From: Paracyclopina nana
Taxonomy: Eukaryota > Arthropoda > Copepoda > Cyclopoida > Cyclopettidae
Reading direction: 5' to 3'
DNA length: 64,000 nt
Assembly (NCBI GenBank): GCA_019096065.1
Contig: JAGUCH010000001.1
Coordinates: forward strand, 372,001 to 436,000
Shown here: positions 2,290 through 56,384 of the stretch, in pieces
Layout: every line of letters begins with the position of its first letter
How positions within the stretch are numbered: the first letter of the stretch is position 1
Notes under the pieces: generated by a model
Told to the model about the DNA's origin: nothing
What the model saw: only the letters and a program-made list of their open reading frames with translations
Database searches by the model: none
Translations under genes and position numbers: made by a program

Positions 2290-5211
2290 ATGCCGAGAAA
2301 AAATGCAAATGGCCCCGTTTCAAACAAGGCTCGCCAAGCCAAACATCGAAAGAAAAGGCGAGAGGCTATGAAAAAGCTGCAAGAAATGCAAGCTCGTTGC
2401 GAGGCCAGAGTCAGGTTACTCCAAGAGAGAATGAACTACGTCGATAATTTGTAAGTTGACGGTGACCGTCATTTTTTCAGACGAACTGAATTCGAAATTA
2501 CTTTCACATTTCAGACGCGAGGAAGATGTTTTTGGACCGCACATCACTGATGTCTGCCCATTTAATGAGGACGATCCGGCGAGGATTGATGAGGCCATAG
2601 CCAACATGAGAGCAGCAATGAGTGGTGACGAAGATGCCGATAACGAGGACAATGACGAATTTCATGATGCAGTGGAAAATGCCGTTGAAAACGAACAAGC
2701 TTGCGAAGGCACTTCGATGCAGCATGGCTCAAGGGTCATCAGGCGTGGTCTCAAGCGACGCTTAGCTGAGATCAAGCATTTGGATCCGAATGACTCTACA
2801 CCTGAATTCAGCGACCTGGATGGTGATTGTGACGACAACACTCAAGCACTACACTCGCCAGTTTTCAAGTCTAGTCGAAAGGAAAGCGGTAATGACTCCA
2901 CTGATGATGATGTTGTGGTTGTCAATGACGAAAATGAGGACGAGGATGACAACTACATTGATCTACCCGATGACTACGACGAAATCGATCAGGTGCGAAA
3001 GCCAATTGAAGATGATGACATGATCAGTCTCAGCTCCCATGAATCTGCCGTCTTTGCCGATCGTGATCCAGTTCACGTTGACCCAGGAGACCTCGACTTC
3101 ATTGAAAACACAACTGGCACTAGCGATGATGAAGCCCCGCCTGAATTTGAACGTGTAAGCCATTTCGCATGCATTTGTTTTTCCTTTACTTTCATAGCTC
3201 TGTTTCATATTTCAGATGCCTGTTCAGGATGCTGTCAGAGAGCTGCTGGCAGCAGATACGGATGATGAAGAAGATGTGTACTACGATGCCCAGGATGAAA
3301 TCATCGAAGAGCATGGTGAACCTGACCCTCGAGAAGACAATGCTGTCTTATGCCATGGAACCACCCTAAAGGACTTTCGAGAAGCTTTGGAGAAAGAGGA
3401 CGAGTTGGATACACAGAGAAAGAGGAATCATGCTTTGTATGCAAGATTCTTCTACCTTTGCTCCATTTTGGCTGTTACGGATAGGGCTGCAAAGGCCTTT
3501 TGGAACTTTGCAAGATCGTTGACAGATAGAGTGCTTTGTTCTTTTAAGACTATGAAAAAGAACTTTGAGAAGCTTGTGCCCCCAATTGATATGGTCTATG
3601 AGTTCTACGACACGGTGGACAAGAAGACAATGCACCACACTGGATCCTACTTTCCTAGAAGAAAGTATCCGAGGCCAAGGTATTTGCTTATGTCCGAGTG
3701 GTCCCAAGTGAAGCTTAAGGAGCTCATTGAGTTTTTCAAAAGCGTACATCCAAAGGACTTTCAATGTACACACAAAGGAAAAATGTACGTAGACCTTTTC
3801 TTGGATGGAGTCCCACTTGCGAAATCTTCCGACAGTTTGATGAGCGTACTGTGTGCACGCTTCGCTCCATGCCGAAAAGTTTGGCCCATTGCTGTGCACA
3901 TCTACAGAAAAGGCACTTCAACTGACATTGTAGACCTCTGCAGTAACTTTCTGGAAGAATGCATGGAGAATAATGTCATTGTGCGCAGGTTCATAGGCGA
4001 CAGTCCAATGCGGGCAAAATTAAAGATGTTGAAAGGCCATGCAGGATATTGTAGCTGCGAATTCTGCTACTGCGTGGGCAAATATATGAAATCTGCCAAG
4101 AAAATGACTTTCCCTCTCGATACAAGCACTTACAAACGCAGAAGCGGATGAAGAGTGGAGACAAATAGCACTTAAGATCGAACAAAATCCAGACCTTCCA
4201 GCGAAAGAGCGATTTGGCTTGACAGGCATTTCACCGCTTCTCCAGCTTGACTATTTCGATATCGTACGCCATTTCGTGCCTGATCCCATGCATAATGTCT
4301 CCCTTGGGGTCGGAAGGCAAATGATTAAGTTACTCTTGAAAACGAAGGCAACAGGTGACATTACGAATCCAGAAGGGAAAGCCATTGCAAGTAAGTTCGA
4401 TGCCAATTGGATACATCAAGAACTGCCTGATGAATTTCCCCGTCGACCACGATCGCTGAAAAAGAATCTGGTGCATCTGAAAGCCTCTGAGTACATTGCT
4501 ATTATTTGCTGCGGGTTCACGCACATGTACGACGCAATGAATTTGAACAGTCAAAAGTCGCTTCGACGCACTTGGCTGCACTTCGCCTGGATTGTTCATG
4601 CAGCTCTCCTTCCCGATCCAATCTTTAAGAAGATTGTGCCAAACAGCATCTTTGCTTACAAGAGGCAAAAGGAGTTCTACAGGCTTTTTCAACAGAACTT
4701 TTCAAAGCAGGAGTGTTCTTTCAATATCCACACCTTCAGCCATTTATTGGAAATCAGAAAGTTGGGCTACCTAAGCGACTTCAGCGCCATGCCATTTGAA
4801 AGCTTTTTCAGCTACCTTAAAAAAATCATTAAGCCCTATACGCTCAGTTTTGCAAAGCAGGTGCTAGTGAAGTCCTTCATTTCCAACATGGGCGACCACA
4901 GGTGTGAGTACAAAGTCAATGTGAGTCCAAACATGAAAAAGAGGGCAGTGAATAATTTGGTAGTTACTGTCGATGGCCAATTTTATTACGTCCATGATTA
5001 CACTGAAACGACTTACGAATGCACTCAAGCCCTCACTAAGGAATACGTCACCCCAGAAGCTCCAGAACTCAATTGGAACCACGTCTTCGTGAAGAGGCTT
5101 GATCGCCTAGACAATGAGCTGGTCGAGATACCTAAAGAAAAAGTACTATGTAAAGCAATTCTAGCTGGAGATGTCTTAATTTCGGTGCCTAATGATGTCT
5201 ACTTCACGTAG
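2290..5211 (+). CDS. DDE-type transposase (CACTA/EnSpm-like), frameshifted
   Basis: Exons are 2290-2450, 2515-3154 and 3216-5211, with phases 2 and 0 agreeing across GT-AG introns of 60-64 bp. Exon 1 is a short, very basic coiled segment, exon 2 is extremely acidic (D/E-rich), and exon 3 holds the catalytic part. Visible motifs: 'LFLDGVPLAKSS' (Asp about residue 464), 'FIGDSPMRAKLKMLKGHAG' (Asp about 529) followed by a Cys-x-x-Cys cluster, then 'PDPMHNVSLG' and 'SAMPFESFFSYLKK'. The order matches the large animal transposases usually grouped with CACTA/EnSpm (tnp2-like). The frame breaks near 4133: frame 0 stops at 4151 and homology resumes at once in frame 1, which one extra base in the AAA at 4132-4135 would explain. 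The copy is therefore either inactive or carries a consensus error. The end is the TAG at 5209-5211. Superfamily assignment is moderate; transposase identity is fairly sure. Confidence 0.72.
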
Positions 5212-6077: not shown

Positions 6078-6082
6078 CAGGC
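5870..6082. repeat. AT-rich ~175-bp tandem repeat, left part (split by the LTR element)
   Basis: A unit beginning 'AAAAAGCAGAATTTTAG' near 5945 continues across the insertion into 13574-13611. The next unit starts with 'AAAAAGCTAAATTTTAG' at 13612 and another at 13784. Removing the 7.5-kb element and one TSD copy gives a continuous unit of about 177 bp beside one of 172 bp. Confidence 0.6.
6078..6082. repeat. Target-site duplication CAGGC, left copy
   Basis: CAGGC precedes the TG of the 5' LTR and is repeated at 13569-13573 right after the CA of the 3' LTR. Five-base duplications are usual for Ty3/gypsy integrases. Confidence 0.9.
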
Positions 6083-6379
6083 TGTTGTATCATGTTGAAG
6101 CATACTTCCCTATATTGACTCTCACGTGTATTATAGCTATAGTAGATACTCCCTTGTTACCCCAGCGCGCGCGTGCACTCATTCATTCTTTCTGTATTGC
6201 TTAAGCTTGCACTGAATTACACTCAGTACACATCTCGTATCAAAGTGGATACGTTCGCCTCGATCTGGTAAATCTCGGCGTAGCAGTGCTCACGGTTTCC
6301 TGGTACAAGATCAGGGATCCAACCGACGTAGCTCGAGTAGTAGTGCCTTAAGTGTCACCCACGAGGTCGGGACCAACCA
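6083..6379 (+). repeat. 5' long terminal repeat
   Basis: 297 bp, TG...CA, identical to 13272-13568. It contains an alternating CG tract (about 6154-6164) and an arthropod-type initiator-like 'CTCAGTACAC' near 6221, a candidate transcription start; no clear TATA box is seen. Confidence 0.95.
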
Positions 6380-6397
6380 TGGCGTCAGTTCTCAGTC
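6380..6397 (+). other. Putative primer binding site
   Basis: TGGCGTCAGTTCTCAG starts immediately after the LTR. The TGG complements a tRNA CCA end. I could not assign the tRNA from memory. Confidence 0.5.
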
Positions 6398-6442
6398 TCT
6401 TTGCATAAGAGGCCCTTTCCTAGAAGAGGGAAGGTTTGAGAA

Positions 6443-6588
6443 GCAGCCGAAGAAGGTTAGTGAGTGGAAAATTTCCGCCACCCTTGGCAGCATCACGACA
6501 ACAAAGTGTGAGAGGCAGCCGGAGAAGGTTTCGTGAGTGGAATTGTGAAAGTTCCGCCACCCTTGGCAGCATCACAACAAAAAAGTGT
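6443..6588 (+). repeat. Duplicated ~72-79-bp block in the retroelement 5' leader
   Basis: Two imperfect copies: one from GCAGCCGAAGAAGGTT (6443), one from GCAGCCGGAGAAGGTT (6515), both containing CCGCCACCCTTGGCAGCATC. The block sits between the primer site and the Gag start, where packaging signals usually lie. 'AAGGTTAGTGAG' in the first copy is also a plausible splice donor. Confidence 0.7.
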
Positions 6589-6602
6589 CAACAAAAGTGT
6601 CC

Positions 6603-9600
6603 ATGAGCCAGGACTCAATTAAAAGTGCTGGCGAAGAAGAGTGGCATACTGCAGATCAGAACGTATTTGCAGCACTTCAAAGGCAAGTGAAAGCCTTAGA
6701 AGAAGCCAAAGAAGAAGCGGAGGGCCCCGAAGATACGCTTTTGGCAGCCACAAATAGTGACGAGGACACATTTGATACAAGTGTGGTCAGAGCAAATTTA
6801 GCGATGACCGAGAAGGAGAATCCAACTGACTTGCAATTGGCAATCGGAAAGCTTTCCGAAGCCAGAGGTGCAAGAGCACTCGAGGACCTCACCAAACAAA
6901 TACATAGTCTCAATGGACACAAGAGTTGGTTGTCCAGGCACATGAATGCCGGAGAGAAGCTATGCGAGGCCCTGGAAAGGCAGAAGGATATTTCAGTTTC
7001 AGAAGCAAAAGAGCTCCAGAAGCTGAAACAAAAGTTGGTCGACCAGGAGAATAGCATCATGCAGATTCTAAATAACCTGCCGGACGAGACCCGAGTCACT
7101 CAAGCTGACAAGGTCAAGGAGATGTTCGAGAGAAAGGATGCCCTGGAATTGAAAGCACTGGCAATCACAGGCCGGTACGAAAAGGCCAACCCAACTGCCA
7201 TATCGGCATCAAATGCACCGGCATCAGAGGACAGAAAAATTGTCAAGCCGGATGCAAATCTGAAGCCGAAAACGCTGAAGACTGGTGCTACAGCCATTGA
7301 GCTGCAGGTTTTTTTGAGGACTTGGAAGACCTACGTTCAAGAGTCGGAGATCCAGAAGAAGTCCATCGATGCCCAGCACACTTACAGTCTGGTATTATTT
7401 GATGCCAATCTATCAGCCAAGATTTCAGCAAAGTTGAGTGCGGAATCGCCCCTTTTCATACAAGATGAAAATGTGGGCACTCCTTGGATCCTTTCAATGG
7501 AGAGGATCGTAGTAAACGAGTTCCAGCTGGCGTTTCCATTGTCTAAGAGAAGACTGGAGTGCTTTCGTCACAAAAGTACAAACCCAAGCGAGCTGCATGG
7601 AACGAGTTGGGCTGCATTTGAGCTGAAATGCAAAGCAGCCGAGTTTGAGAGCATGGACATAGAGACGGTAATGAAGTACCTCTATATGAGCTCTCTAGCT
7701 AATAAAGCCTTACGGAAAGAGCTTATCAAGGCCGACAACTTAGCTGGCGGCAAAGCAACGATGGATGAGCTCAAATCGGCTGGCAACATGTATGATGTTA
7801 ATACAGCCACCGAAGAGGGTTACGAGAACCCTACCGTGAAGAAGGCTGGGCCTACTGCTTATCGCAAGAAAAAGGCCATGGGCTCGAATGCTGGGGCTGA
7901 GGCCGCAGGTTCAAGCCAGAAGAAGAAGCATGGAGGTTGCTTTGAATGCGGAAGTAAAGAGCACCTCCGACCAAATTGTCCGAAGGCACCAACCTGTCAA
8001 TTTTGCAAGAAGAAGGGTCATGGGGCGGACAAATGCTTCAAGAAGAAAGGCAAGGGCGAGGGTGGCGAGAAGAAGCCGAACGGGAACCCGACGAAAGCCA
8101 TTAAAAAATTCACAGTTAAGTTGCCTTTGAGTTTTGATTTTTCTAGCACGTTGGAGTGTAAAAACGCTATTGCTTGCAATGAGGCAATACGCATCATGAA
8201 AAAATCAAAAGATAGATACTCTCTGCCGTTCATTTTTCAGAGTCGCATCAAGAGGATGGAGGAAGATGACGGAGGGGCAGGGGTTATCAAGATGGCGAAG
8301 ACCAAGAGCAGAAAAAAGAAGGAGATGCAGCAGAAGATCTCCAAGGCAGTGAGCGGGCTGCGGCCCTCATGCCTACCCAATGCTACCAGGGTCACGTCAT
8401 CAAGGCCAACTCCCAAGGCCAAGCTATTATTTTGCCCTGAGGTAGGGTCTGCTTTCTCTACGTATTGCCTGCCAGATACTGGAGCAACCATTACTGTGGT
8501 TGATGAGAAAGTTGCAGCGGAGATGGGGATGCCAATATATCCCAATCCGGAGACCGTCAGGAGCGTTGATGGCACCGAAGTGAAGCCGGGCAGAACATGT
8601 GAGATTGCAATATCACGTGGCATGAAAGTGGTTGTAGTAACCAATGCAGTGGTCGCTTCACTTGGTGACGATGAAGAGGTGATTGTCGACTGGCAGACAC
8701 TGGAGATATTAGGCGTGGTTGGCCTAAACATTAACTCCACGGCAATCGCAGCAACCACAATGGATATGACTCTGGAGAGCTTGAAGCTCAAATATACAGA
8801 GGTCTTTGCAGACAAGCTTGACAAAACCAGGTTTATGAAGGGTGAACCCATGAAGATCCACCTAGTGGATGGGGACATAAAACCTATGAGGATCTCTTCA
8901 ACCAATGCCATACCGGTGCATCTCAAAGCAGCGGCGGACAAGTGCATTAAGGATTTGGAGGATGCCGACATTGTCAAGAAGCTGAAGCCAGGGGAGATGA
9001 CAGATTGGACCTCTAGAGGTTTCTTTGTCATCAAGTCTGATGGCAAATCAGTCAGGTTGGTTACGGACTTCGTTCAGCTGAACAAGTACGTGAAGAGACC
9101 AACCCACCCCTTTACGTCTGCATTCCATTTGTTGAAGAGCATCCCTGCAAAGGCTCAGTGGTTTGTGGTCGGAGACTGTGCGCAGGGATACCACCAGATC
9201 AAGTTGGAAGAAAAGTCATCCTACTTGACTACATTTTTGCTACCACAGGGAAGATTCCGTTATGTGAGAGCTCCCATGGGGCTCACATCTTCCAGTGATG
9301 AGTGGTGCTGCAGGAGTGACATGATCATGACTGGCCTGAACGGAAAGGGAGTCAAATTGGTCGATGATGTCCTCATCTGGGGGGAAACAGAGCAGGAAGC
9401 CCTGCACAATCTGGATGTCCTCCTCAGCAACTGCAAAACCTATGGTGTCAGCTTATCACCCAAAAAGCTGCACATGGGTGAACGTGTCAAGTTTGCTGGA
9501 TTCATGGTCAGCAAGAATGGTGTAGAACCACACGATGACAACTTGAAAGCAATCAGGAGTACCCAAGGCCAGCCAACCAGTCGGATGTGCGAAGCTTTGG

Positions 9601-11372
9601 GATTGGCTCAAACTTTAGGAAGTTTCTTGCCTGATTTGGCCCACATGTCAGCTTCATTGAGGGAGCTAACCAAGGCCAAAGTTCAGTTTCAGTGGTTACC
9701 AAGACACGAAGAAGACTTCAACCAGCTGAAGAAGATCCTGACCGGACCTTTGTTGGTGAAGCATTTTGATGTCAACAAGACCACAGTGTTGACAACGGAT
9801 GCCAGCAGGTTATATGGCATCGGCTACATTCTAACTCAGTATGACCCAAAAGACCCGGACAGGAGCTACCTGATTACCTGTGGGTCCAAGGTCAACTCCG
9901 CTGCTGAGAAGAATTATGCAACTATTGAGCTGGAGTTGCTGGGAATAGTCTATGGATGTGAGAAGAGCTCGCATTTTCTGCATGGCTGCCCAAAATTTTT
10001 GGTGAAGACTGACCACAAGCCTTTACTTGGTATTATGAACAAGGACATGGCAGAGATCACTAACTCCAGACTCTTGAGGCTTAGGGAGAGGCTACTACCG
10101 TTCAACTTCGATTTGGTCTACCTTGAGGGAAGTTAAACTTCATTGCAGATGCCTTGTCAAGACATCCCATTAACTTCTCAGATGACCACCCAGACGCTGA
10201 AGAAACAGAAACTTTGAAGAACTCAAAGATCAGCGTAATCTCAGCCCTCTCTGTCTCAGCACAAGAAGATCCGGCATTCCAAGAAATCCATGATGCAGCA
10301 AGAGCTGACAAGGAGTATCAGGATCTAATTGAGGCCATCCAGGAAGACCTTCATCATCATAAGAAGAAGGGTGTGGCCATTCATGCATTAAAGCTGGTGC
10401 CCCAAAACCTTTGGGGGCAGCTTTCAGTCCAAGATGGAATGGTTGTTATTGATGGGAAACGTGTCTTCGTACCAAAGGAAGCACGTCCATTCATCTTGAG
10501 GACTCTTCATATTGCGCATCCTGGGCAAACGAAGAGCCTGGCTACGGCCAGACAATTCTACTATTGGAGTGGTATGACCAAGGATATCAGACAATCAGTA
10601 GAAGAGTGCGAAATGTGCCAAAAGTACATGGCCTCTTTACCGCATGATGAAGAAGGCGAGAACATGGTACCAACGGCCCCAATGCAGAGTATTGCAATGG
10701 ATTTGGGCCATCATGAAGGGCAGACTATTTAATAGTTGTGGACACCTTCAGTGGTTGGCCTTGGATTTTCAAGATGGTAAGATACACTAGTGAGGAAATC
10801 ATCAAGAAGTTGACGATCATTTTTGCCACATTTGGGTACCCGATCGTGATGAGATCCGACAATGCTGGATGCTTCACCTCTCATGAAATGCGTGAGTTTT
10901 GTAAAGAGCATGGCATAATTGCCACCACCAGCAGCCCTTATCACCACGAGTCCAATGGGACCGCGGAAGCTAGTGTGAAAAACATGAAAAGGCTGGTTAT
11001 GAAAACCAAGACCCTAAGGGAGATGAATGCCGCTGTGCTGGAATTTCGAAATCTGGCACGAGCAGACGGCAAATCCCCTGCGAAGATGTTTTTGGGCCGT
11101 CATTTAAGGACGAAATTACCAATCTTGCATGAGATGACAAAGCTTGAGATGCCAGAACCCAGAGCTGAAAAGAAGCAATTGCCAAACGAGATCATTCCAG
11201 ATTTCAAGGTGGGGGAAAAAGTGCGCATGCAAAATGCACTTACTAAGCTATGGGAGGAGTTCGGAGTCATCCTCGAAGTTCGGCATTCCGGCAGAAGCTA
11301 CGTCATCAAAATGATGATGGCGTGATCAGTGTGAGGAACAAGCGCTTCTTACGCAAGCATAAGATTTGCTGA
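6603..11372 (+). CDS. Gag-Pol polyprotein, broken by three 1-base frame shifts
   Basis: Gag and Pol share one frame from the ATG at 6603; an in-frame GTG at 6585 is a less likely start. Gag ends in two CCHC knuckles (CX2CX4HX4C, residues about 446 and 465). Then come the protease 'DTGA' (625), a reverse transcriptase with 'RAPMGLTSSSDEW' and a VDD active site in 'KLVDDVLIWG' (921), and RNase H with 'TTDAS' (1066) and 'KTDHKPLLGI'. The frame stops at 10134. Pol continues one base back into the RNase H-integrase linker, with the HHCC zinc finger and first catalytic Asp up to 10732. It shifts back again near 10726 for the rest of the D,D,E core ('RSDNAG', 'NGTAEASVK'), and once more near 11310 for the integrase C-terminus, ending at TGA 11370. 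All three shifts are -1 and sit at short base runs. The protein makes the virus-like particle, copies the RNA and inserts the DNA. Confidence 0.92.
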
Positions 11373-11489
11373 CCTCGATGCAAATGCATCGTTATGACTA
11401 GTAAGTAAAGCACCTCACTCAACGCCCAGCTTTTGCAGCAGCACCTTCTCCAGGAAAACATTTCCATCAGCACTCAGTAAGTCTTTTTG

Positions 11490-12236
11490 ATGTATACATA
11501 CACCCAGTGGCTCGGTACTTTGAACACGCCGACCGCAGAAGAGGCTAAGAAAAACGAAGAGAAGTTAGCTGCCCTAATTGCAAAAAGCATTGTAAAAAAT
11601 TGTCCCCCTGTAAATTGCACTTGGTCGGAGGTTATAATGGGATCAGGTCAAAGTACAACCAACAGCGCCGACAAAGCGAAGACTCAGGTTGTTGATGAGA
11701 CCAGCCACACTGGTATTAGGCTAGCGGACATCGATATCATGGTTCCGCAAGGCTCCAGCGAGGAGGACAAGTCAGCTGCTGAGGCAACTGGCAGAGATGT
11801 CACGCATTGGATCTTCTATGGAGTGGCCTTTTGCGCTTTGATGGCTTTGCTATGGATTGGACTGCGGTTCAGGAAATGGCGGAAGAAGGCCAGCGCGAGG
11901 AAAAGGGCCAGAGACTCCCTGTTGATCATGCACTCCCAAGCTGCAAATGTGCAGCCACCGGTCTACCCCCAACAAGCCCCTGCCCCATATGGCTGTCCAG
12001 GCTATGCGTCACCCTATGTCACGCCCTTCGCCTCGACAATGTCCATCGCCCCGACCCCTCATCCGATGGTTTATCAACCTTTCCCAGGAGTTGTACAGAG
12101 CTTGCCAAACATGGCTTATGGAGCCTCCCCGCTGGGAAGTTCACCAACGGTTTCGCATCCTGACTCGCCCCCCTTGCAGGAGGAGGAGCAGAGACGGCGA
12201 AATCGTCTCTTTGCCATCTCTTACAACAATATCTAA
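11490..12236 (+). CDS. Retroelement accessory ORF 2: single-pass membrane protein with Pro/Tyr-rich tail
   Basis: 248 aa from the ATG at 11490. An in-frame ATG at 11637 would give 199 aa starting 'MGSGQSTT', which fits the N-myristoylation rule MGxxxS/T, so the true start is open. One strong hydrophobic segment (residues about 107-127 of the long form) is followed directly by a cluster of Arg/Lys, which predicts the C-terminus inside. The tail is rich in Pro, Tyr, Ala and Ser and holds 'PPVY' (residues 156-159), a PPxY motif of the kind that binds NEDD4-type WW domains in budding. One N-glycosylation sequon (NCT) lies upstream of the membrane segment. There is no signal peptide, furin site or fusion peptide, so this is not a recognisable Env. 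It starts 118 bases after the pol stop. GTAAGT donors at 11401 and 11477 and several CAG acceptors lie just before it, so it may be made from a spliced RNA. Confidence 0.7.
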   Translation: MYTYTQWLGTLNTPTAEEAKKNEEKLAALIAKSIVKNCPPVNCTWSEVIMGSGQSTTNSADKAKTQVVDETSHTGIRLADIDIMVPQGSSEEDKSAAEATGRDVTHWIFYGVAFCALMALLWIGLRFRKWRKKASARKRARDSLLIMHSQAANVQPPVYPQQAPAPYGCPGYASPYVTPFASTMSIAPTPHPMVYQPFPGVVQSLPNMAYGASPLGSSPTVSHPDSPPLQEEEQRRRNRLFAISYNNI

Positions 12237-12244
12237 AGTGTTTT

Positions 12245-12258
12245 TCTCTGTGTTGCAG
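12245..12258 (+). promoter_or_regulatory. Splice acceptor in front of ORF 3
   Basis: The T-rich tract TCTCTGTGTTGCAG ends two bases before the ATG at 12261. The matching donor is not determined; candidates are in the leader near 6456 and GTAAGT at 11401 or 11477. Confidence 0.5.
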
Positions 12259-12260
12259 GC

Positions 12261-13034
12261 ATGTCAGAAGCCCGAGGTGACCGTTCCCCCATTGACTGGG
12301 ATCATCCCGATTGGGACCCCAACGCACCTGTAGATGAGCGCCTGATCGCACCAGCGCCACTCGATGTAGCCACCCTCAATGAGCTGGACGATGTAGCCAA
12401 GCTCAAAGCCGAATTGGCGAAGGCAAAGGAGGAAGTCTATGATGCCCAGTACAGGATCACCGAACTGGAGCATAACCTGGCTGAGGCCAACCAGGAGGTC
12501 AGGGACCTCATTTGGACGAAGGATGTGCTGCGTGCGGATTTGAAGCACCAGTACAATGGCTACAGGCGAATGCTGGACAAGATCTTCGACAACATCCACA
12601 AGGCCATGAACTCGCCTGGCAAGAAATGGAAGCGGACTCGGATTGTCCCCATGACACCCCTGAGGGTAGTTGTTGACGCCGATGGGGTCCGCAGAATCTC
12701 CAGACCGTGTTACGAGAACGCGGAATCTGCCAAGCACGATGGGTTCTCGGCCAGGGCCGGTAAGGCATATACCCGTCAAGGCATAATGCTGGAGGCCGAG
12801 CTCATTGGATTCGGTCAACTGGACAAGGCATGCAAATTGGATGATGGTTCCGAAGATGAAGCTTCCGTCACGAGGTCCGAGGTTATCAAGATCCTAGACT
12901 TGAAGCGTGACGAGTTGACCAGAGATGATCGCCAGAAGTACGGCATTTTTGTAGCTGCAATGGTAGCTATTGGTGTTGGCATGTTCATATGGTGCACCAA
13001 TGGAGGGGAGGTTGCTTTGACGACATCGCCTTGA
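12261..13034 (+). CDS. Retroelement accessory ORF 3: coiled-coil, C-terminally anchored membrane protein
   Basis: 257 aa. The ATG follows a textbook 3' splice site (T/C-rich run ending TTGCAG at 12253-12258), pointing to expression from a spliced subgenomic RNA. Residues about 38-98 form a heptad-rich coiled coil (K/E/L/A), followed by a basic stretch and an acidic region. A hydrophobic segment at about 228-246 lies near the C-terminus with about 10 residues after it, so a tail-anchored topology is likely. I recognise no family. It is 24 bases after ORF 2 and ends about 240 bases before the 3' LTR, in the place where env sits in retroviruses. Confidence 0.7.
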   Translation: MSEARGDRSPIDWDHPDWDPNAPVDERLIAPAPLDVATLNELDDVAKLKAELAKAKEEVYDAQYRITELEHNLAEANQEVRDLIWTKDVLRADLKHQYNGYRRMLDKIFDNIHKAMNSPGKKWKRTRIVPMTPLRVVVDADGVRRISRPCYENAESAKHDGFSARAGKAYTRQGIMLEAELIGFGQLDKACKLDDGSEDEASVTRSEVIKILDLKRDELTRDDRQKYGIFVAAMVAIGVGMFIWCTNGGEVALTTSP

Positions 13035-13271
13035 AGAGCAACATAGAGAAATGAAGACACTGGATCGGATGATGGAACTGAATTTTGATACGCTATGCAT
13101 TTTTCCTATTTTTCTATTTCATTAGGTTTTTTATGCTCTCATCGAAATTCTCGCTTGCTAGGTATATCATAAATCCTAGGCCCCAAAATTAGAGTAGTTC
13201 GAGGTCAATTGATAGGCTAATATGTTAGTGATTACAGCTACCCAGGGGTATCCGTACCCACTTGGGGGAGG

Positions 13272-13568
13272 TGTTGTATCATGTTGAAGCATACTTCCCT
13301 ATATTGACTCTCACGTGTATTATAGCTATAGTAGATACTCCCTTGTTACCCCAGCGCGCGCGTGCACTCATTCATTCTTTCTGTATTGCTTAAGCTTGCA
13401 CTGAATTACACTCAGTACACATCTCGTATCAAAGTGGATACGTTCGCCTCGATCTGGTAAATCTCGGCGTAGCAGTGCTCACGGTTTCCTGGTACAAGAT
13501 CAGGGATCCAACCGACGTAGCTCGAGTAGTAGTGCCTTAAGTGTCACCCACGAGGTCGGGACCAACCA
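13272..13568 (+). repeat. 3' long terminal repeat
   Basis: 297 bp, identical to the 5' copy. It is preceded directly by the polypurine-like GGGGGAGG and followed by the CAGGC target duplication. Confidence 0.95.
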
Positions 13569-13573
13569 CAGGC

Positions 13574-14970: not shown

Positions 14971-14987
14971 TCACCTAAAAAATTTAC

Positions 14988-15564
14988 CTGTTTGGTCGGC
15001 CTGGTCATTAAACAATTTTCGGCTACTTATGAGTGATGGCTTCGCGGGCACTGCCATAATATGCATAGCCAGGGCGACTTGGAGCCCGTGGCTGATAATT
15101 TGGGCGGCTAGGGTCACAAAAACGATCACCCACCCCCAGCCGCCCTCGGGGTAGTAGTGCTGCTTCATCGTGCGCAGCTCCTTCATTTTTTTGTCAAACG
15201 GGTTAAGCTGGAGGAGCAGCTTGCCGCCGCTGCTGCTCTCCTCCCCATTTTTGGAGATGATGCCCAAAATTTGTTGCTCCGCTACCTCCACTTCACTCTG
15301 GGGCTCGGACGCGAGCATGCCCGAGCCGCCCGAGGGGAAGTCCACCTGGAGGCCCTCGGGTATCACGCCCACGCTCAGCCCGCTGTGGTGCTCGTCCTCC
15401 GCGATGCCCGAGTCTTTGTGGCCCGGGTCAAAAACCGATCCGTCACTCGAGTCCTGAGCTGAGAGCTTCAGCTTGTGCAGAATGACCGGAGATGACCGGG
15501 CCTTGACCGGCATGCTCCTCCTTTTATAGCTAGATTTAGCCCGAGGCCCGAGGGAATAGTCCAT
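14988..15564 (-). CDS. Monocarboxylate transporter-like (SLC16/MFS), alternative first coding exon C
   Basis: The exon starts at its own ATG (15564) and ends at a CAG|GTAAAT donor in phase 1 (donor at 14987). It encodes 192 aa: a long Ser/Gly/Glu-rich cytosolic N-terminus and then 'YPEGGWGWVIVF', the signature opening of membrane helix 1 in monocarboxylate transporters (PDGGWGW in most members), with the helix at about 143-171. Such proteins carry lactate, pyruvate or related acids with protons across the plasma membrane through 12 helices; only helix 1 is here. An initiator-like TCAGTT on - at 15620-15615 and CpG-rich upstream DNA suggest a separate promoter. Two related exons lie at 29855 and 36594, with the same donor phase. 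The common downstream exons are not in the window. Confidence 0.8.
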
Positions 15565-17225: not shown

Positions 17226-17293
17226 TTAAAATAATTTAAAAAAAAAAATGATTTTAAATTTAGCAAAAATCTCAATTAAGCCCTTGAAAGTTG

Positions 17294-17530
17294 CTGTGAA
17301 ATTGGAAATCGGCAGAAAATTCCGAATTTTGAAATTGAAAGAAAATTCCGAATTTAAAATTGGCAGAAAATTCATAAATTTGAAATTGGCAGAAAATTCA
17401 TAAATTTGAAATTGGCTCAAAATTCCGAATATTGAAATTGGCAGAAAATTCAGAAATTTGAAATTGGCTGAAAATTCCGAATATTGAAATTGGCAGAAAA
17501 TTCCGAATTTTGAAATTGGCTGAAAATTCA
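17294..17530. repeat. ~30-bp minisatellite (GAAATTGGCAGAAAATTCCGA-like)
   Basis: About eight tandem copies built around GAAATTGGC(A/T)GAAAATTC, with C(C/A)GAAT or CATAAAT variants. Confidence 0.85.
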
Positions 17531-18110
17531 CCTTGCTTAGCTAATTTCCATTTTGCTCAATGTTGGCAGTGAGACCGACCCAGACAGATGAATTTTTTTC
17601 AACCAGGCCATGAAATCGATCCAGTAATGAAGCATTTCGTGTCTGGTTAATGGCGAGGTGTCGAATGCAAATCAAGGGGGCGTGGCGCCCCAAAGAGTGT
17701 GTCACGGTTCCATACAGCTCGACCTGCTTTTTGCTCCAGCATTACAATAATGTGTATCATTTGATGTACACATCTACATTTTTGAGCCAAGGGCTTAAAA
17801 TTAGACACGCGCTCTGGCAAAGCAGCCCCAAATCCCTTCACTCGATGACAGATCGGAAAAAAGGCCGAGCTCCCCTTGGAAAAAACCATCAGTCCACATT
17901 TGGACATGATTCGAAACAAACTGGGAAATAATGCATCGAATTCCCCAAAGTCTCATGAATTTTGACAAAATGACTTGCCAATAATAAATGGCGGGATCGA
18001 GGTGAAATTTCGAAGCGTCATTACGAGTTTTTCCCGTTTTCTCGCCTCCCGCACGAATTCCCCATACTCAACTCACGTTTTTGCATTTAAAAACAGCCGC
18101 CATTGCCCCA
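17531..18110. other. No gene seen
   Basis: Intronic or intergenic sequence; the short open frames here have no recognisable similarity. Confidence 0.4.
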
Positions 18111-18740: not shown

Positions 18741-21700
18741 AAACTGCAATGATGCTCGGTTGTTTTTGCAAAATTCTTCAACAAGCCGAGTTGTAAATGC
18801 CGATAAGAATTTCAAGCAAGTTTATGGCGGGCACTTTTCAATGGTGGTGGAGCGAGCCGCCTTTTTTTGGGCCGAGTGCTTTATGACTCTTTTCACGATC
18901 ATTTTCCGCCGCGACCTTTTTCCCCATAGGGAAAACGGGATGAGTTAAAAATAATGGCACTGCAGATTTTGACGGCTACAAATTATTATTACAATCTGCC
19001 AAAGGAGCTGACAAAATCTTGAGCATGAATCTTGTTGTGAAATTACTCCAATAAACAAACTTTTAGTTTTGATGCCAATCTCAAATCTGCTCAAATCGGT
19101 CAGATCATAAACTAAAACATAAATTAGTATAATAATGATTGTTTTGTCGAAAAAGAGATAACTTTATTTTTAAAGGTCATCAGTGCTAAAAAAGTTATGA
19201 TTAATAATTATTTTTTTAAAATAAGAACATTTAAGAAAAAATAAGGATTGTTTAAAAAATAAATATTTTCTTAATAAAAATAAGGATTTTTTAAAATAAA
19301 AGTAAGGGTTTTTTAATAAAAATAAAAAATTTTTAATAAAAATAAATATTTTTTAAATAAAAATTAATTTTTTTAATAAAAATTAATATTTATAAAAAAT
19401 AAAGATTTCATGAAAAAATTACGATTTTTTGTAAGAAAATAGATGTTTTTTTAAAAAAAAAATCATGATGGTTATTTAGAAATTTAAAATTAAAGTGTGA
19501 CTTTAGAAATTAATTTTCTAAGAAAATATTTTTAGGAATTTTATTTCATGATAAAGTTCATTACTTGGTTTTTTATTAATTACTGCAAAATGAATAATTT
19601 GAGAAAGAAGCGAGCCAAAAAAGTCGGGAAAATTGCTCATTAATATTAAAGGAACTTGCTTAATGAGCCAACAATTAATTATTGCATGCGCACTCCATCA
19701 CAATTAAAAGTTTCATTTTTTGCGGGTCATCCTTAGTGAGCATTCTGTTAATTTTACATTTTTGCCATCAGTGCGCAAGGTGAGATTGCATATTGCTTGA
19801 TTTCGCATTCAAACGCTTCATTCACAACTTGCTGAGAGGGGTGTAACCCAAGAGGAGGAAAAAGTAAGTCCAATCTTTCAGCAAGTTGTGTGAAATAAAT
19901 GGGTAGCTCTCACCAGTACAATTTAATCAATGTGCTGAGCTCACATGTGAATTGAAATGCTCTTTTAAAGGAGAGGAACTGCAAAAAGTGTGTGAAAAAA
20001 AAAAGTTTTTTTAAAATAGTGATTTTGGCTTGCAATTAATGCCGTGCAAATTGAGATGATTTGTTGCTTGCAATTACCCAGGATTTTCCACACCCCTCAA
20101 TGTAGACAATTTCAGAAACGAAGCTTTACTGAGCTGCAAAAAAGCTTCAAAGAGCTCAATTGTTGAGAGCAAAAAAATCGCCAAAAAAAGCCATTTTTCA
20201 CCTGACCCAAATCGCCATGTAACGTCTCAAAAAAGTGCAAATAATGAAATTTTAAAAAAAAACATTATTTAAGTTTATTATTGTTTATCAATGATGATTG
20301 AAAAAGTTATGCGTTAAGTGATACGGAATTGAAATGGAAGAGTCTGTCCTAATATGCTTTTTTGTTCGCTTTTCCAGGCATTTGGTTAGTGATGTGTGCC
20401 CAAGCTGAGAAGTGGTGCTTTTTTGCTCCAACTCCAACTAGGGAAGTTGGAAAAAGGGAGCGAAACTCAGTTAGCGTACAAGTAGTAGGAGGCAGGTTAA
20501 GCTCTATAAAAGGAGTGTGCAAATATATCATTTTCAATCTGCATACACTCACTTGATTTGTAGACCTTATCGGATCGAGCCACAAAGAAACATCTGTTAT
20601 ATTCTGCTTGGATAAGCCACACAGCAGCAGCCAAAATTAATTCTGCCTATGTGTGTGTCAACCCAAAGATACCCAGAGATAATTAAAAAACACAGTAATA
20701 ATTCAAAACAAGGCATAAATCAACAAACTGCCTACTACGCCCAAGCAAAATCTATGCATTGGGTCCATTGAAAATTGAAAGCGACAAACCTAGTTTTGGC
20801 ATTTACATAAAAAGACCAAGTTTTGGCTTGGGCATCAAGTTCTGCCAAAATGTCAAAGAAACTTGAACAAAAAGCTCTATAAGACATACTTTTCCATTAC
20901 AACTCTTTATCGCTTTACGTTCAATACACTATTTTTCATTAAAGTACGTCAAAAACTTTAAGCGCTATTTTATTGTTATACAAAAATAGATTAAAACCTA
21001 GCACACGCTACAAAAAGTAACTTAATATTAAACGTCTAGATCCGCAAATAATCATTTTCAAGATTTTTTTTTGAAAAAATATAAAAGCTTTTTGAAGCTT
21101 TGGAGCTGCTTTGTAAAGCCAACTTATGAAATTAGTTCATGAGGTGGAGAATAGGCGGCGCTTTGAGCGCTTTCATGCATGCTACAGCAGCGCCATCTAC
21201 CTGCCTTTCTTGGCATAATATGAGAGGGAAATTGCATGGCAATGAGAGTTCAACTGCAAAACTTCATGAATTTTGAGCGTTTTTCACCAGATGAAGAAGG
21301 AGGAGCTTCAAAAGTGGGCAATAACGTGATACATCATACAATTCTTGACAGATTTTTCTCACTTCTTCACAAATGTGATGAGAATTCTGCCCTGCAGCCC
21401 ATTTCAACTTATTTTTAGATTGACTTTTTGTATCTTACAGTTTGAATATATTTGACTATGGGTAGATGATACAAGTGGGGCTATGATAATCAGGTTGCAT
21501 GCTGAGAAGCCCAAAAATGATTGATGCTCTTTAAAAGAGTTTAACCTCTTGTTGTTATTATGGTAGCTCAGACTATTAGACAGCAATTTATGGTGATCCA
21601 CAGCTCAGTTGACCTTTTGACAGTTTGACATGTGCTGCCAATTCTTTTCTCCCAGAACCATAAATTCAAAAGTGCATCACCCTAAAAGCTAAATTATTCA

Positions 21701-22670
21701 TAAAAAAACATTTTGAAAAAACATAACTTTCAAAATACTTTTGTTTTGAGCCTTTGCCAATTTGTAAATAAAAAAGGCAATTTTTAATAGCTAAATCAGT
21801 TTTTTATAGAATATAAAAAAGTCAAGAAATGTATTTATGCTTCAAAAATTCACGCAGAAAATGGATTTTTGGATTTATTAAAAAAGAAATTATGCTTTTG
21901 TTGATCCACATGGGAAATAATCAATGTTTTGGTTGCTAAAGTGCATTTCTATTATAAATCATTAAAACAAAGTTAGATAATTCAGTTCTAAAAAAAATAA
22001 TCATTTGATGAATTTTCCTCATTTTTAAATAAGGTTTTTTGATGATTTCTCAAAGTATTAGGTGATTCTTTAAATTAATTAAAAATAATTTCTAGATAAT
22101 TTTTCTAATTCTTAAGTCTTGGGTGATTTTTTAAATTCTAATTTTAAAAAAGGAAGTTTATGCTTTTCCAAATGGGAAATAATCAAGTGTAAATCACCAT
22201 GGCCAATTTGAAATAATCAAGCATATCCAATGTTGCCATTTGGGAGTGACCGAAAATGGCAATAAAAAGTACTTTTTAATGGTCTGAGTTATAGAAATGC
22301 ATTGAGAGCCATTATGATGAGCATAAGAAAAGCAAAAACAAATAATTACTTTTTGACATCATTAATCTCTGCCTGGTTGGGAAAAAAAGGGGTCGAAAAT
22401 TAGCTCAGCTTTTTGCCCGCGAATGACAAGTTTTTATGAGGGGCTGCCCTAAAAAAGTCAGCTCGGAACAATGGCGTTATTTTGCATCTTATCACGATCC
22501 ATCAGAAGCCAATTTGGTAGTTGGATGAACAGCTGATCACAATCAAGATAAAAAGAACTTTTTTTTCGGGGGAAAAGAAAAAAAAATCAGTATTTCTCAC
22601 AATTTTTCCAATTTGAAAGATTTGATTAAAATATAATCTTTTTATTATTATTACATAACTTTTCCAGAAT
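18741..22670. other. No supportable gene; low-complexity A/T and one TATA-type motif
   Basis: 19190-19490 is A/T low-complexity sequence built from AATAAAAATAAGGATTTTTT-like runs. A clear 'CTATAAAAGGAG' lies at about 20501-20512 with an initiator-like TCAATC about 30 bases on, but no convincing reading frame follows. A CTCF-like AGCGCCATCTA occurs at 21189-21199. Confidence 0.4.
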
Positions 22671-22679
22671 ATTCAAGAT

Positions 22680-23165
22680 TTTCTGTAGCTTTTCAACTAC
22701 TTTTGGCGATTTTCAGAATTTCCGGGAGATTTTCTATGATGTTTAAAATTGCAAGTAGCTTTCGACAATATTTGGTGGTTTTCAAGGTTTTTGGGCCATT
22801 TTATGGGATTTTTCAAGAATTTTCAATTTTTTTTGGCAATTTTCAAGAATTTTTGGCGATTTTCAAGATTTTTTGGCAATTTTCAAAAAAATATCAGAAT
22901 TGCTACTAAGCATATGAATTGTTGGCATTTGTCAAGGATTTCTGGCGATTTTCATCATTTTTTTCCAATGTTCGGTTTTTTTGCGATTTTCAAGATTTTT
23001 TCACTAATTTCTAGGATCTAAGGCAACTTCCGAAACTTGTCTCGCGATTTTAGCGATCTTCAAGAATTTTGGGCAATTATCAAGAATTTTTGGCGATTTA
23101 AAAAAATAGTTGGCGATTTTCAAGAGCTTTTGGCATTTTTCAAGAATTTTTTTTTTTGACAATTT
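22680..23165. repeat. ~20-24-bp degenerate minisatellite (TTTTCAAGAATTTTTGGCGA)
   Basis: More than 15 imperfect tandem units of TTTTCAAGA(A/T)TTTTTGGC(G/A)A. Confidence 0.8.
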
Positions 23166-23576
23166 CAAGCAATTTCAAGAATTAAGAATGCTTATATAAC
23201 AACATAACTTTTAACCTAAATTATTATAATTATTTTATTATAATTACTTTTTATTTTTCTGTAATGCTCGGGCCGTTTCGCGATTTTTTTCGCGCTGCGC
23301 GGGAGAAAACGCTTACAATTCAAATGAGTGCCATTCCAGGCAAAAAGGCAAAGTTCTTGACCCCTTTGCTCATCCTGAGCCCAAAGAAGAACTGCAATTC
23401 GTGATGCTCAAGAGACAAAGCTGGGAATTTCCTTGATTTGCATAAGACCATTCATATGTCTTCTTCACTGGATTTCTTCTTCCAACCTCTACAATCCATG
23501 CCAAAAAGTGCAAAATCCAGCTTTTGTTACTCACAAAAACTTTCCAGAAACTTTCAATAAGACCTCTAAAAGCTCT

Positions 23577-28799: not shown

Positions 28800-29845
28800 A
28801 GGAGACTTTAAGTGGGAAAAGCGAGTTTTAAGCGTCCCGCTCGAACCATCCGAGACATGCTTGCATACTTGGACGTCTAACTTAGATTCTATGAAAAGCG
28901 CTGGATTAATCCAAGCTAGAACTTGAAATGGACTCCTAATTGATAATTTGGAGTGAGAAACCATGCATTACGCTCAATTGATCCAAGCCTTAATTGAATT
29001 GGACTCCTATTTATGATTTTTTGTGAGACCGAGCGGAGCGACTCCAAAAGCTTAAAATATCTATCGAAATCGAAAATTAAGTATAGCGCTCAATTAATCA
29101 AAGTCTGAATTGAATTGGACTTCTAATGGATGAGTTGTTTCTAACACCGAGCGGAGCGACACAGAAAAGAAGAAATATCGCGCTCAATTCATCCAAGCCA
29201 TACTTTGACTCCTATTAATCTTGGTTTTCTAAAATCGAACAGAGCAACACTTAAAACTTAGAAATATCACTCAAAATCAAAAATTATGTATGGCGCTCAA
29301 TTAACCCAAGCCATAATTGAATTGGACTCATAATTACACAGTTGTATATAATACCGAGCGGAGCGACACCCAAAAATAAAGAAATATCAATCAAAATTGT
29401 TGTAAACTATGCTTAGCGCTCAATTAATCCAATAATAGAATGTGACTCATAGTTAGCATGAGTTTTATATAAAACCGAGCGGAGCGACACCCAAAAATAA
29501 GAATATCAAAGAAATATCAGTCAAAATTGTTGTAAACTATGCATAGCACTCAATTAATCCAAGCCATAAATGAATTGGACTCCTATTAATGTTTGTTTTC
29601 GAAAACCGAGCGGAGCGACTCCAAAAAATATGAAATATCATTCAAAATTGAAAATTATGTATAGCGCTCAACTAACCCAAGCCATAATTGAATAGGACTC
29701 CTAGTTACTAAGTTGTACATAAAACCGAGCGGAGCGACACCAAAAACAAAGCAATATCCATCAAAATAGTAAATTATGATTAGCGCTCAATTAATCCAAG
29801 CCAAGATTGGTTTGGACTCCTATTTAATTGAAAAACCGAGCAGGT
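28800..29845. repeat. ~120-bp satellite array (GAGCGGAGCGAC repeat)
   Basis: About eight units with GCGCTCAATTAATCCAAGCC, AATTGGACTCCTA and ACCGAGCGGAGCGACAC; the last motif recurs near 29031, 29149, 29356, 29476, 29608 and 29727. The array ends about 10 bases from the splice donor of transporter exon B. Its backbone matches the repeat at 18110-18740. Confidence 0.85.
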
Positions 29846-29854
29846 TAAGCATAC

Positions 29855-30305
29855 CTATGTCCTTTTCTTGCACAGAGTGGTATTTCCGGTTGGCAATGGG
29901 GAACAGCAAGATGGCAACACTTTGCTGTAGCCCATGGGCCAAAAGTTGCGCGAAAAAGCCACAAACGAGGATGACGTAGCCCCACCCGCCCTCGGGGTAA
30001 TAGTGCTGAAAAATGCCCGCAATTCGCCGCTTTCTCACTGTGCGGGCACTTAAAACTTCGTCCTGGATCACCAGTTCATCTGGCTTCGCCTTCGCCACCT
30101 CGGAATTGGCCAAAGACTGCTGGAAAGCGCCATCTAGCAGCTCGGCCACCACCACGGCCGCAGCGCTACCAGAGCTCCCCTCAAAGGAGCCGTTGGCGAC
30201 TCCTCCGCTATCGTTATCGTCACCGATGAAATAGTGGCGTTTTTTCACGCGTTTCGGCGCCTTTCTCCTGAACAGCTTCTGGCTTTTTCTAGACCACCTT
30301 TTTTA
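29855..30305 (-). CDS. Monocarboxylate transporter-like, alternative exon B (5' end uncertain)
   Basis: An open frame encodes a Ser/Gly/Ala-rich acidic segment followed by 'YPEGGWGYVILVCGFFAQLL', the helix-1 signature. It ends at ATAG|GTATGC, a phase-1 donor (exon end 29855) as in the other two copies. The frame is open upstream to a TAA near 30308 and contains no ATG (only a GTG near 30248), so it needs an upstream exon or a non-ATG start. Acceptor-like AGs on the 5' side are in phase 2, which does not fit the phase-1 donor of the exon at 39068. The start given is the open-frame limit, not a proven splice site. Confidence 0.65.
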
Positions 30306-36376: not shown

Positions 36377-36558
36377 TATATGTAAACAAATTATAAAACA
36401 GGCTTACAAAATGTCTGAGCTCATTTTACAAAGTAAAAATCTCATAGCATTACTTGGCTCTCGCAGGCTCGAGCTCGCAAAGTTGCCACTCGATTTTTAC
36501 TTTGAAAAATTTGCTCAGCTATTGTATTAGCTTGTTTTATAAATTGTTTACATATATA
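36377..36558. mobile_element. Short fold-back (hairpin) element next to transporter exon A2
   Basis: Arms of about 65 bp: TATATGTAAACAAATTATAA... ending AAAGTAAAAATC, mirrored by GATTTTTACTTTGAAAA... ending TTGTTTACATATA, with a ~50-base loop. It directly abuts the previous MITE and ends 36 bases from the exon's splice donor. Confidence 0.7.
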
Positions 36559-36593
36559 AATAGATATTTCCATAAAAAGTAAAATTTTCCTAC

Positions 36594-36854
36594 CTCCCGA
36601 GGAGACTTGAAACAGTGGCTCTTGGACGTGGAACTTTCGATCTGCCAACGAGGCAATCACTGAGGCTGACATGTGGAGGCCATGATTGATGACAGTGGCC
36701 AAAAAGCCACATACCAAGACAATGTAGCCCCACCCGCCTTCAAGGTAATAAGCGTGGAATTTCAGGTTGGCCCACCGATTATTCACAGGATGAATTCGAG
36801 GCTGGCGCCCGATTTCGCCCAAACTGGGCGGCCTCTTCCGGACACTTTCAGAGC
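36594..36854 (-). CDS. Monocarboxylate transporter-like, alternative exon A2 with membrane helix 1
   Basis: An internal exon with a TTTTCAG acceptor at 36855-36861 and donor GGAG|GTAGG. Both junctions are phase 1. It encodes 87 aa: a basic stretch and then 'YLEGGWGYIVLVCGFLATVI', the helix-1 signature with Leu where other copies have Pro. It joins in frame to the ATG-containing exon at 39353-39068, giving 182 residues before the common downstream exon, close to the 192 residues of exon C. Confidence 0.78.
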
Positions 36855-37026
36855 CTGAAAATACAAAATAGTATTTAAAATTGGCTTTTTCCAATGAAAG
36901 TTACTGTTTATTGTGCAATATTAAGTGTTTTATAATCACCTTTACTTTAAGGGAGCGTTAACTGAAAAAGGAGCGTGGCTCATAGTGCTTCCTGTTTGAA
37001 GTAACGAGCCATGGTCAAAATACCTC

Positions 37027-56000: not shown

Positions 56001-56384
56001 AACTTGAGCCTTTTGAGGCCAACCTTTGAGATTTGTGATGCCCATGACCAGGTTCAGTACAGCATTGAAGGGCCCAACTCCTGCACCTCAATGCTCAAGC
56101 TTTGCTATGCCAAATGCTGCTCAAGCAAGGCTTGCTGCTGCATGTCTCCCAATGTGGTGTTCAAGGTTGTCCATCCAGGATCTGATGACAAGGTTGGAGA
56201 CATCAGCAAGCTGAAGCAAGGGCCAATGCAGGCCAAGAATGACCATGGGGACTTTGACAGGTTTGGCATTGATTTCCCTGATGATGCTGACATCAACATC
56301 AAAGTGGTTCTCCTTGCCACTTGCTTCATGATTGACTATCTCTACTTTGAGGGCCACAATGACCAAGAAGACCAGGTTCTCTAA
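53039..56384 (+). CDS. PLSCR: Phospholipid scramblase
   Basis: Exons 53039-53120, 54825-55141 and 55950-56384 join in phases 1 and 0, giving 277 aa. Exon 1 is a short hydrophilic N-terminus. Exons 2-3 carry the scramblase domain: 'LPIGLAELSKTDKIVVQQ', Cys-rich clusters ('TSCCCCLEYES', 'CCSRQCCE', 'CDNCLCCPCYNQ'), 'CPIGVPVGSVRQ' and the C-terminal pattern 'FGIDFPDDADINIKVVLL' leading into one hydrophobic segment ('ATCFMIDYLYFE'). The Cys clusters are those palmitoylated in characterised members. The family has been tied to calcium-dependent lipid movement across the plasma membrane and to nuclear roles. Length is near that of short animal members. AATAAA lies at 56415-56420. Intron 1 contains a large minisatellite. 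It is tail-to-tail with the next gene. Confidence 0.9.
53480..54615. repeat. 20-bp minisatellite (AACAACTAGTTGGTTACTTG) in scramblase intron 1
   Basis: About 45-50 units. Most contain the palindrome CAACTAGTTG. A 25-bp variant with an added TTCGG is itself tandem at about 54286-54395. Units decay towards both ends. Confidence 0.9.

Follow-up and report, generated by a model that had tools for sequence, protein, structure and literature searches.

Ty3-type retrotransposons of the Drosophila MDG1 group lack an envelope protein (Env), and their capsids are reported to pass out of follicle cells and into the oocyte (PMC11952523). The evidence base for such transfer by FAST-like proteins of retroelements consists of imaging and genetics in Drosophila, together with a screen of arthropod elements for short open reading frames (ORFs) (PMC11952523). 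The sORF2 protein of MDG1 elements such as 412 and Stalker2 has one transmembrane (TM) segment followed by a basic stretch, an MGxxxS/T start in four of six cases, and a second small ORF beside it (PMC11952523). The FAST proteins of reoviruses (p14 and relatives) have a short N-terminal part that is myristoylated in some members, a single TM segment, and polybasic and polyproline motifs within approximately 80-200 residues (PMC11952523, PMC12945298). Here we describe a Ty3/gypsy-type element of the copepod Paracyclopina nana that encodes a protein of similar layout. It occupies positions 6083-13568 of a stretch of 64,000 nucleotides (hereafter the window; GenBank assembly GCA_019096065.1, contig JAGUCH010000001.1, positions 372,001 to 436,000 of the forward strand), and carries two small genes, ORF A and ORF B, behind pol. 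We consider it likely, by analogy, that ORF A is a spliced FAST-like protein that takes the place of Env in envelope-independent transfer between cells, and that ORF B is its coiled-coil accessory.

The element is placed in the Ty3/gypsy class by its order of reverse transcriptase (RT), RNaseH and integrase (IN), its long terminal repeats (LTRs) and its short target duplication. The LTRs are identical over 297 nt and CAGGC stands on both flanks, so the insertion is recent. An earlier note on this DNA, made from the letters alone, had claimed two frames of 248 and 257 codons after pol, each with one hydrophobic segment and neither with a signal peptide, furin site or fusion peptide, and had taken intact frames in a recent insertion as a sign that they are in use. 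All of this was borne out. ORF A (11490-12236, 248 codons from its first ATG) and ORF B (257 codons) each have a single hydrophobic segment in a Kyte-Doolittle scan, at residues 104-127 and 225-248, respectively; none of the latter three features was seen by eye, in the hydrophobicity scan or with Pfam; and both frames are conserved across copies and selected. The note missed the key feature, which is that constraint rises sharply at an internal ATG of ORF A, at 11637, where the translation begins MGSGQS.

We searched the genome (92 Mb in 10 contigs, with the window on a contig of 17.8 Mb) at the DNA level with positions 11373-13271 and obtained at least 62 match rows. ORF A was free of stops over residues 1-199 in 28 of 40 rows (over 1-198 in one of them), and ORF B over residues 1-257 in 23 of 46. 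The ratio of nonsynonymous to synonymous differences per site (pN/pS; NG86, pooled, gapped and stop codons skipped) was calculated for the window against 15 copies, picked from 38 loci for their divergence plus some close ones; changes common to related copies mean that the differences behind these ratios are non-independent events. From 11637 onwards ORF A gave 0.106, with 0.050 between the MG start and the TM segment, 0.168 in the TM segment and 0.152 in the tail. The upstream extension gave 0.322 in 13 of the 15 copies, four with 17 codons and one with 16, and strong constraint thus sets in near the MG codon pair. ORF B gave 0.282, and 0.198 in its central part. As a yardstick, the ratios in 14 copies were 0.065 for RT-RNaseH, 0.094 for part of the integrase and 0.173 for gag, so ORF A is constrained at about the level of integrase. 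A cruder count, pooled over all pairs, put ORF A at 0.201 and ORF B at 0.352; it dropped 8 of 38 and 15 of 37 loci, respectively, as truncated, frameshifted or deleted, and left in out-of-frame stretches of L038 (ORF A) and of L013 and L033 (ORF B). Both frames are genes under selection.

Large pieces of either frame are missing in some copies, as might be expected if the frames were functionless passengers that merely happen to be open while the family is young. We find this hardly credible, given the pooled ratios of both frames at pairwise dS values that reach 0.29 in ORF A and 0.88 in ORF B, the fact that one of the three large deletions fuses ORF A with the pol frame and the other two preserve the reading frame, and the sharing of the layout by sister families. 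The earlier note had proposed a comparison of other copies and their substitution ratios as a check, and the result was mixed: neutral decay was not found, and in-frame deletions were found in both ORFs. For example, L016-L019 have an in-frame loss of 537 nt in ORF B that joins its first ~24 residues to the C-terminal hydrophobic part. The exactness of the missing blocks had suggested spliced retro-copies, an idea that was ruled out since the junctions are short direct matches and not GT-AG.

Read from 11637, ORF A opens with MGSGQS, an N-myristoylation motif of the MGxxxS/T type. Its N-terminal part has 57 residues and is followed by one TM segment, by a stretch that is strongly basic and by a tail rich in Pro and Tyr. 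An MGxxxS/T start was present in five of the 234 ATG frames of at least 60 aa in the window, and ORF A was the only one of the 234 that also had a TM segment starting at residues 11-75. From -3 on the N-terminal side of the TM segment the charge changes to +8 on the other, which is a topology cue by the positive-inside rule alone. Positions -3 and +4 are A and G around the ATG at 11637, and both are T around the ATG at 11490; by the start-codon context rule the former is strong and the latter weak. ORF A therefore probably starts at 11637 and not at 11490.

In errantiviruses such as gypsy, Env lies behind pol and is made from a spliced subgenomic RNA, a position like that of ORF A. A degenerate or unusual viral Env, with a fold too diverged for recognition, would agree with this position, with the single TM segment and with the acceptor-like sites described below. 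We regard this as very improbable. ORF A does not have a long, glycoprotein-like ectodomain, and a very basic stretch lies on one side of its TM segment. No Pfam match above the cut-off, Env or any other named domain, was obtained for ORF A or ORF B, and the Env homology that the earlier note had set as a refuting result was thus not found; the PDB search gave no credible match for ORF A, and a protein homologue search with both proteins scored none. Single-sequence AlphaFold2 (AF2) models of ORF B and ORF A had mean pLDDT values of 53.6 and 59.8, and the low-confidence model of ORF A consists of one long helix (43-104) that spans the TM segment and the basic stretch, a short C-terminal helix and disorder.

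We also found relatives of the element in the same genome. An RT search gave five full-length sister rows at 60-61% RT identity; other gypsy families of this genome are at 26-30%. All four sisters that were read have an MGxxxS start (L075, MGNSAS; L076 and L077, MGQSTS; L078, MGQSNS). Behind the integrase of L075 is a 220-aa frame from MGNSAS, with a stop two codons upstream of it, and a second frame of 151 aa that is coiled-coil-like and without a TM segment. In L076, a 208-aa frame from MGQSTS is followed by a second frame of 177 aa, which is hydrophobic in a C-terminal segment. An MG single-pass protein and a second small ORF are thus present after integrase in both sisters read fully. The two-component membrane module that the earlier note had proposed is accordingly supported as regards two small ORFs in the env position, and the L075 second protein does not fit its membrane nature. 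In L077 and L078, of which short pieces were read, the MG start directly follows an AG, and a polybasic stretch comes after the TM segment in L077 and L076 as in the window. Charges before and after the TM segment are -2 and +4 in L076 and -2 and 0 in L075, the part before it has 33 and 38 residues, respectively, and both have Tyr at the TM end. Two further near-full-length relatives of ORF A (C7:3422560 and C1:2373124) are known as search rows alone.

In genome and metagenome collections, the RT-RNaseH region had 741 protein matches at E <= 1e-10, the best at 59% identity. P0084, a pol from a metagenome with 46% identity over the searched region, continues in frame into MGCPSS, a TM-like segment and KMKTRPKK; no other of the 120 matches listed had such a segment within its last 400 residues. 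Viral contigs were scanned with ORF A, with pol and a pol alignment, and with P0001, and yielded no confirmed relative.

The copies fall into two types according to the junction of pol and ORF A. A-type loci, 24 of the 36 aligned and including the window, carry a 158-nt stretch between pol and ORF A, and their pol stops at TGA. The gag-pol of the window copy is broken into at least three frames (1195, 201 and 202 codons), and at least one break is a homopolymer run in which most other copies carry one more base; eight other rows of this layout have a single gag-pol frame of 1605-1629 codons from stop to stop, and in L071, which was read out, it ends in ...DANASL before the stop. B-type loci (12 of 36) lack the 158-nt stretch and have TGG in place of TGA, so that ORF A is in the pol frame, inside a long open frame of 420-2082 codons (1823-2082 in four of the 12). 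The first two thirds of the N-terminal extension are also missing from these copies. L022 is a thirteenth copy without the stretch, but it has kept TGA. The 158-nt stretch itself (11430-11588) has short inverted ends, GCTTTTGCA and TGCAAAAAGC. In L023 and L071, the 3' module is far more diverged from the window than pol is, with dS of 0.29 in ORF A and 0.88 in ORF B but 0.083 in RT, which suggests that it was exchanged between subfamilies.

The B-type frames bring in another explanation, namely that ORF A is a membrane anchor or a budding or assembly factor, similar to a matrix protein or an Env tail, which gathers capsids at a membrane without cell fusion and whose natural form would be Gag-Pol-ORF A. 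TGG replaces TGA in 12 of the 13 copies with the 158-nt deletion, leaving ORF A in a long open frame, and a myristoyl group together with a basic stretch is a common membrane-targeting signal. Nevertheless, ORF A stands as a gene of its own behind a stop in the A-type copies, no ATG precedes MG within its frame in L075 and L076, and the PPxY motif of ORF A is unconserved. We therefore judge this explanation unlikely.

We infer a role in transfer between cells for ORF A because its layout matches that of the FAST proteins and of sORF2 of MDG1 elements. Genomic RNA would be spliced from a donor in the leader to acceptors before ORF A and ORF B. When acceptor-like AG sites were ranked, the best of 189 in the window region lay 2 nt before the ATG of ORF B, the best of 199 in L075 lay 5 nt before the second ORF, and the best of 119 in L076 lay 2 nt before the MG start. 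The MG form would begin at 11637, which in A-type copies would take leaky scanning, and would be myristoylated and held N-out/C-in at the plasma membrane. There it may merge membranes locally and let capsids pass directly between cells, for example from soma to germ line, a role that has been proposed for sORF2 in Drosophila. In the B-type subfamily, ORF A at the C-terminal end of Gag-Pol could tie the protein to the assembling particle. ORF B would be an accessory from its own spliced RNA: a partner anchored by its tail or, in elements whose second protein lacks a membrane segment, a regulator with a coiled coil.

ORF B has a long helix at residues 36-116, with pLDDT of 87-96 over residues 41-90 in the single-sequence model, which can be read as a predicted coiled coil. 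Two precedents suggest that it may work outside any membrane module as an RNA-export or nuclear regulator. The spliced protein of Cer1 of C. elegans (CERV) is reported to be required for export of genomic RNA (PMC10309623), and sORF1 of MDG1 elements to sit in a subnuclear compartment (PMC11952523). CERV is, like ORF B, the product of an extra gene of a Ty3-type element, is spliced and has a leucine-zipper helix domain; however, it has 517 aa, shares exons with gag and is nuclear (PMC10309623), whereas ORF B has a C-terminal hydrophobic segment, and the likeness is one of description. Such a role would be in keeping with the coiled coil, with the position of the region's best acceptor-like site before ORF B and with the L075 second ORF, which has no TM segment. 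The C-terminal hydrophobic segments of both ORF B and the L076 second ORF argue against it. We regard a regulatory ORF B as a serious possibility, somewhat short of an even chance.

Several observations weigh against a FAST-like role for ORF A. The likeness to FAST proteins is one of layout, and BLASTP of the ORF A proteins was not significant for L075 against L076 or for the window against L076, so homology of ORF A between families rests on position and layout. The 57-residue N-terminal part is longer than the ~30 residues typical of the FAST/sORF2 class, the conserved Tyr directly after the TM segment is missing in the window protein, and the 15 residues past the TM segment of L075 carry no net basic charge. 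In tests for amphipathic character and hydrophobic patches, three N-terminal parts and a tail scored no higher than shuffled sequences. An RNA spliced to the candidate acceptors of ORF A would, in A-type copies, present the ATG at 11490 first and the MG start would be hidden; 11490 may be the start that is used. The acceptor ranking used an ad hoc matrix, and the candidate acceptors of the L075 MG ORF and of the L076 second ORF rank 40 of 199 and 13 of 119. L012-L015 and L019 lack residues 1-34 of ORF A, including MG (102 nt, in frame), and yet form a multi-copy group, for which another copy could have supplied the protein. PPxY reads QPQVY in L020, L022, L023 and L036; a late-domain role through this motif was ruled out, as it is unconserved between copies. 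For sORF2 of Drosophila itself, heterologous fusion assays have failed so far and a requirement has not been shown genetically, according to its authors (PMC11952523).

The element also differs from the described systems. Retroelement sORF2-like proteins have 63-107 aa, compared with 199-220 aa here, and are usually encoded upstream of gag, although they lie downstream of pol, as here, in 7 of 22 Lepidoptera consensus sequences (PMC11952523). No splicing was seen in MDG1 transcripts (PMC11952523), whereas ORF A and ORF B lie behind acceptor-like sites. Unlike sORF2 as described there, ORF A has a long Pro-rich tail and is in the pol frame in one subfamily. The reovirus FAST proteins are encoded by double-stranded RNA viruses, and the N-terminal part is longer in the window protein. 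The Troyka lineage was rejected for this element, since its LTR ends, CG...CG, differ from TG...CA.

The suggestion of the earlier note that this kind of element may be undescribed did not hold, because the FAST/sORF2 layout has already been described in insect retrotransposons (PMC11952523). In the literature that was searched, with most subscription papers outside it, insect sORF2 and virus FAST-like proteins are described, and we found no spliced pair of this size downstream of pol in the accessible portions. We tentatively propose, as possible rather than probable, a separate Ty3 lineage, represented by the RT-RNaseH relatives, with a two-protein, spliced system for envelope-independent transfer behind pol. 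Its components would be a FAST-like protein that ends in a long Pro-rich tail and a partner that is tail-anchored or forms a coiled coil; one subfamily would build the fusogen into Gag-Pol, and the precursor of the particle would thereby carry it. If true, FAST-type transmission would have arisen independently here or be far more widespread. Screens for short ORFs could miss a longer protein that is encoded behind pol and has a second ORF next to it. The proposal makes testable both envelope-free transfer as a common route of LTR elements to the germ line and the existence of a pol-fused fusogen.

The features of the element are listed in Table 1. Pfam matches above the cut-off within it are RT, RNaseH, the integrase zinc-binding domain and the integrase core, and its matches to protease and zinc knuckle fall below the cut-off.

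Table 1. Observed and candidate features of the Ty3/gypsy-type element, in window positions.
Feature	Position	Strand	Basis or remark
5' LTR (TG...CA)	6083..6379	+	preceded by CAGGC, 6078-6082
Candidate leader splice donor, AAG/GTTAGT (slash, splice point)	6456..6457	+	by eye; inference
gag-pol region (PR, RT, RNaseH, IN), frameshifted in window copy	6603..11397	+	A-type stop TGA, 11395-11397
Candidate acceptor AG for ORF A	11476..11477	+	rank 6 of 189; another ends at 11438, rank 7
ORF A N-terminal extension, 49 codons	11490..11636	+	weak context of the start codon, little constraint
ORF A, FAST-like protein, 199 aa from MGSGQS	11637..12236	+	layout, selection
ORF A transmembrane segment WIFYGVAFCALMALLWIGL	11808..11864	+	hydrophobicity scan; AF2
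ORF A juxtamembrane polybasic stretch	11865..11912	+	sequence scan
Acceptor-like AG before ORF B	12257..12258	+	best of 189 AG sites
ORF B, 257 aa; predicted coiled coil 36-116, C-terminal hydrophobic segment 225-248	12261..13034	+	scan, AF2, copies
Purine-rich tract 5' of 3' LTR	13264..13271	+	sequence
3' LTR, identical to 5' LTR	13272..13568	+	followed by CAGGC, 13569-13573

Directly upstream of the element, at 3216-5211, a frame of 311 aa adjoins one of 330 aa; neither has a Pfam match, and the two give the impression of a broken transposon gene. AT-rich tandem arrays of short period were found at 17274-17555, 19216-19458 and 22637-23166. Among 17 stretches from contig ends, nine have TTAGG arrays with TTGGG variants, three have GGCCT/CCAGG arrays, two read N and three have neither array. 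Searches for exact SL1 + GT and for COX1 gave no match, and 18S was located; from such signs the host would probably be an arthropod-like animal. Three minus-strand frames (14971-15564, 29820-30248 and 36442-36894) carry a YYPEGGWGW-like motif and have no Pfam match; we take them to be tandem monocarboxylate-transporter paralogues, probably. Finally, two frames at 54803-56384 match successive parts of phospholipid scramblase (PF03803).
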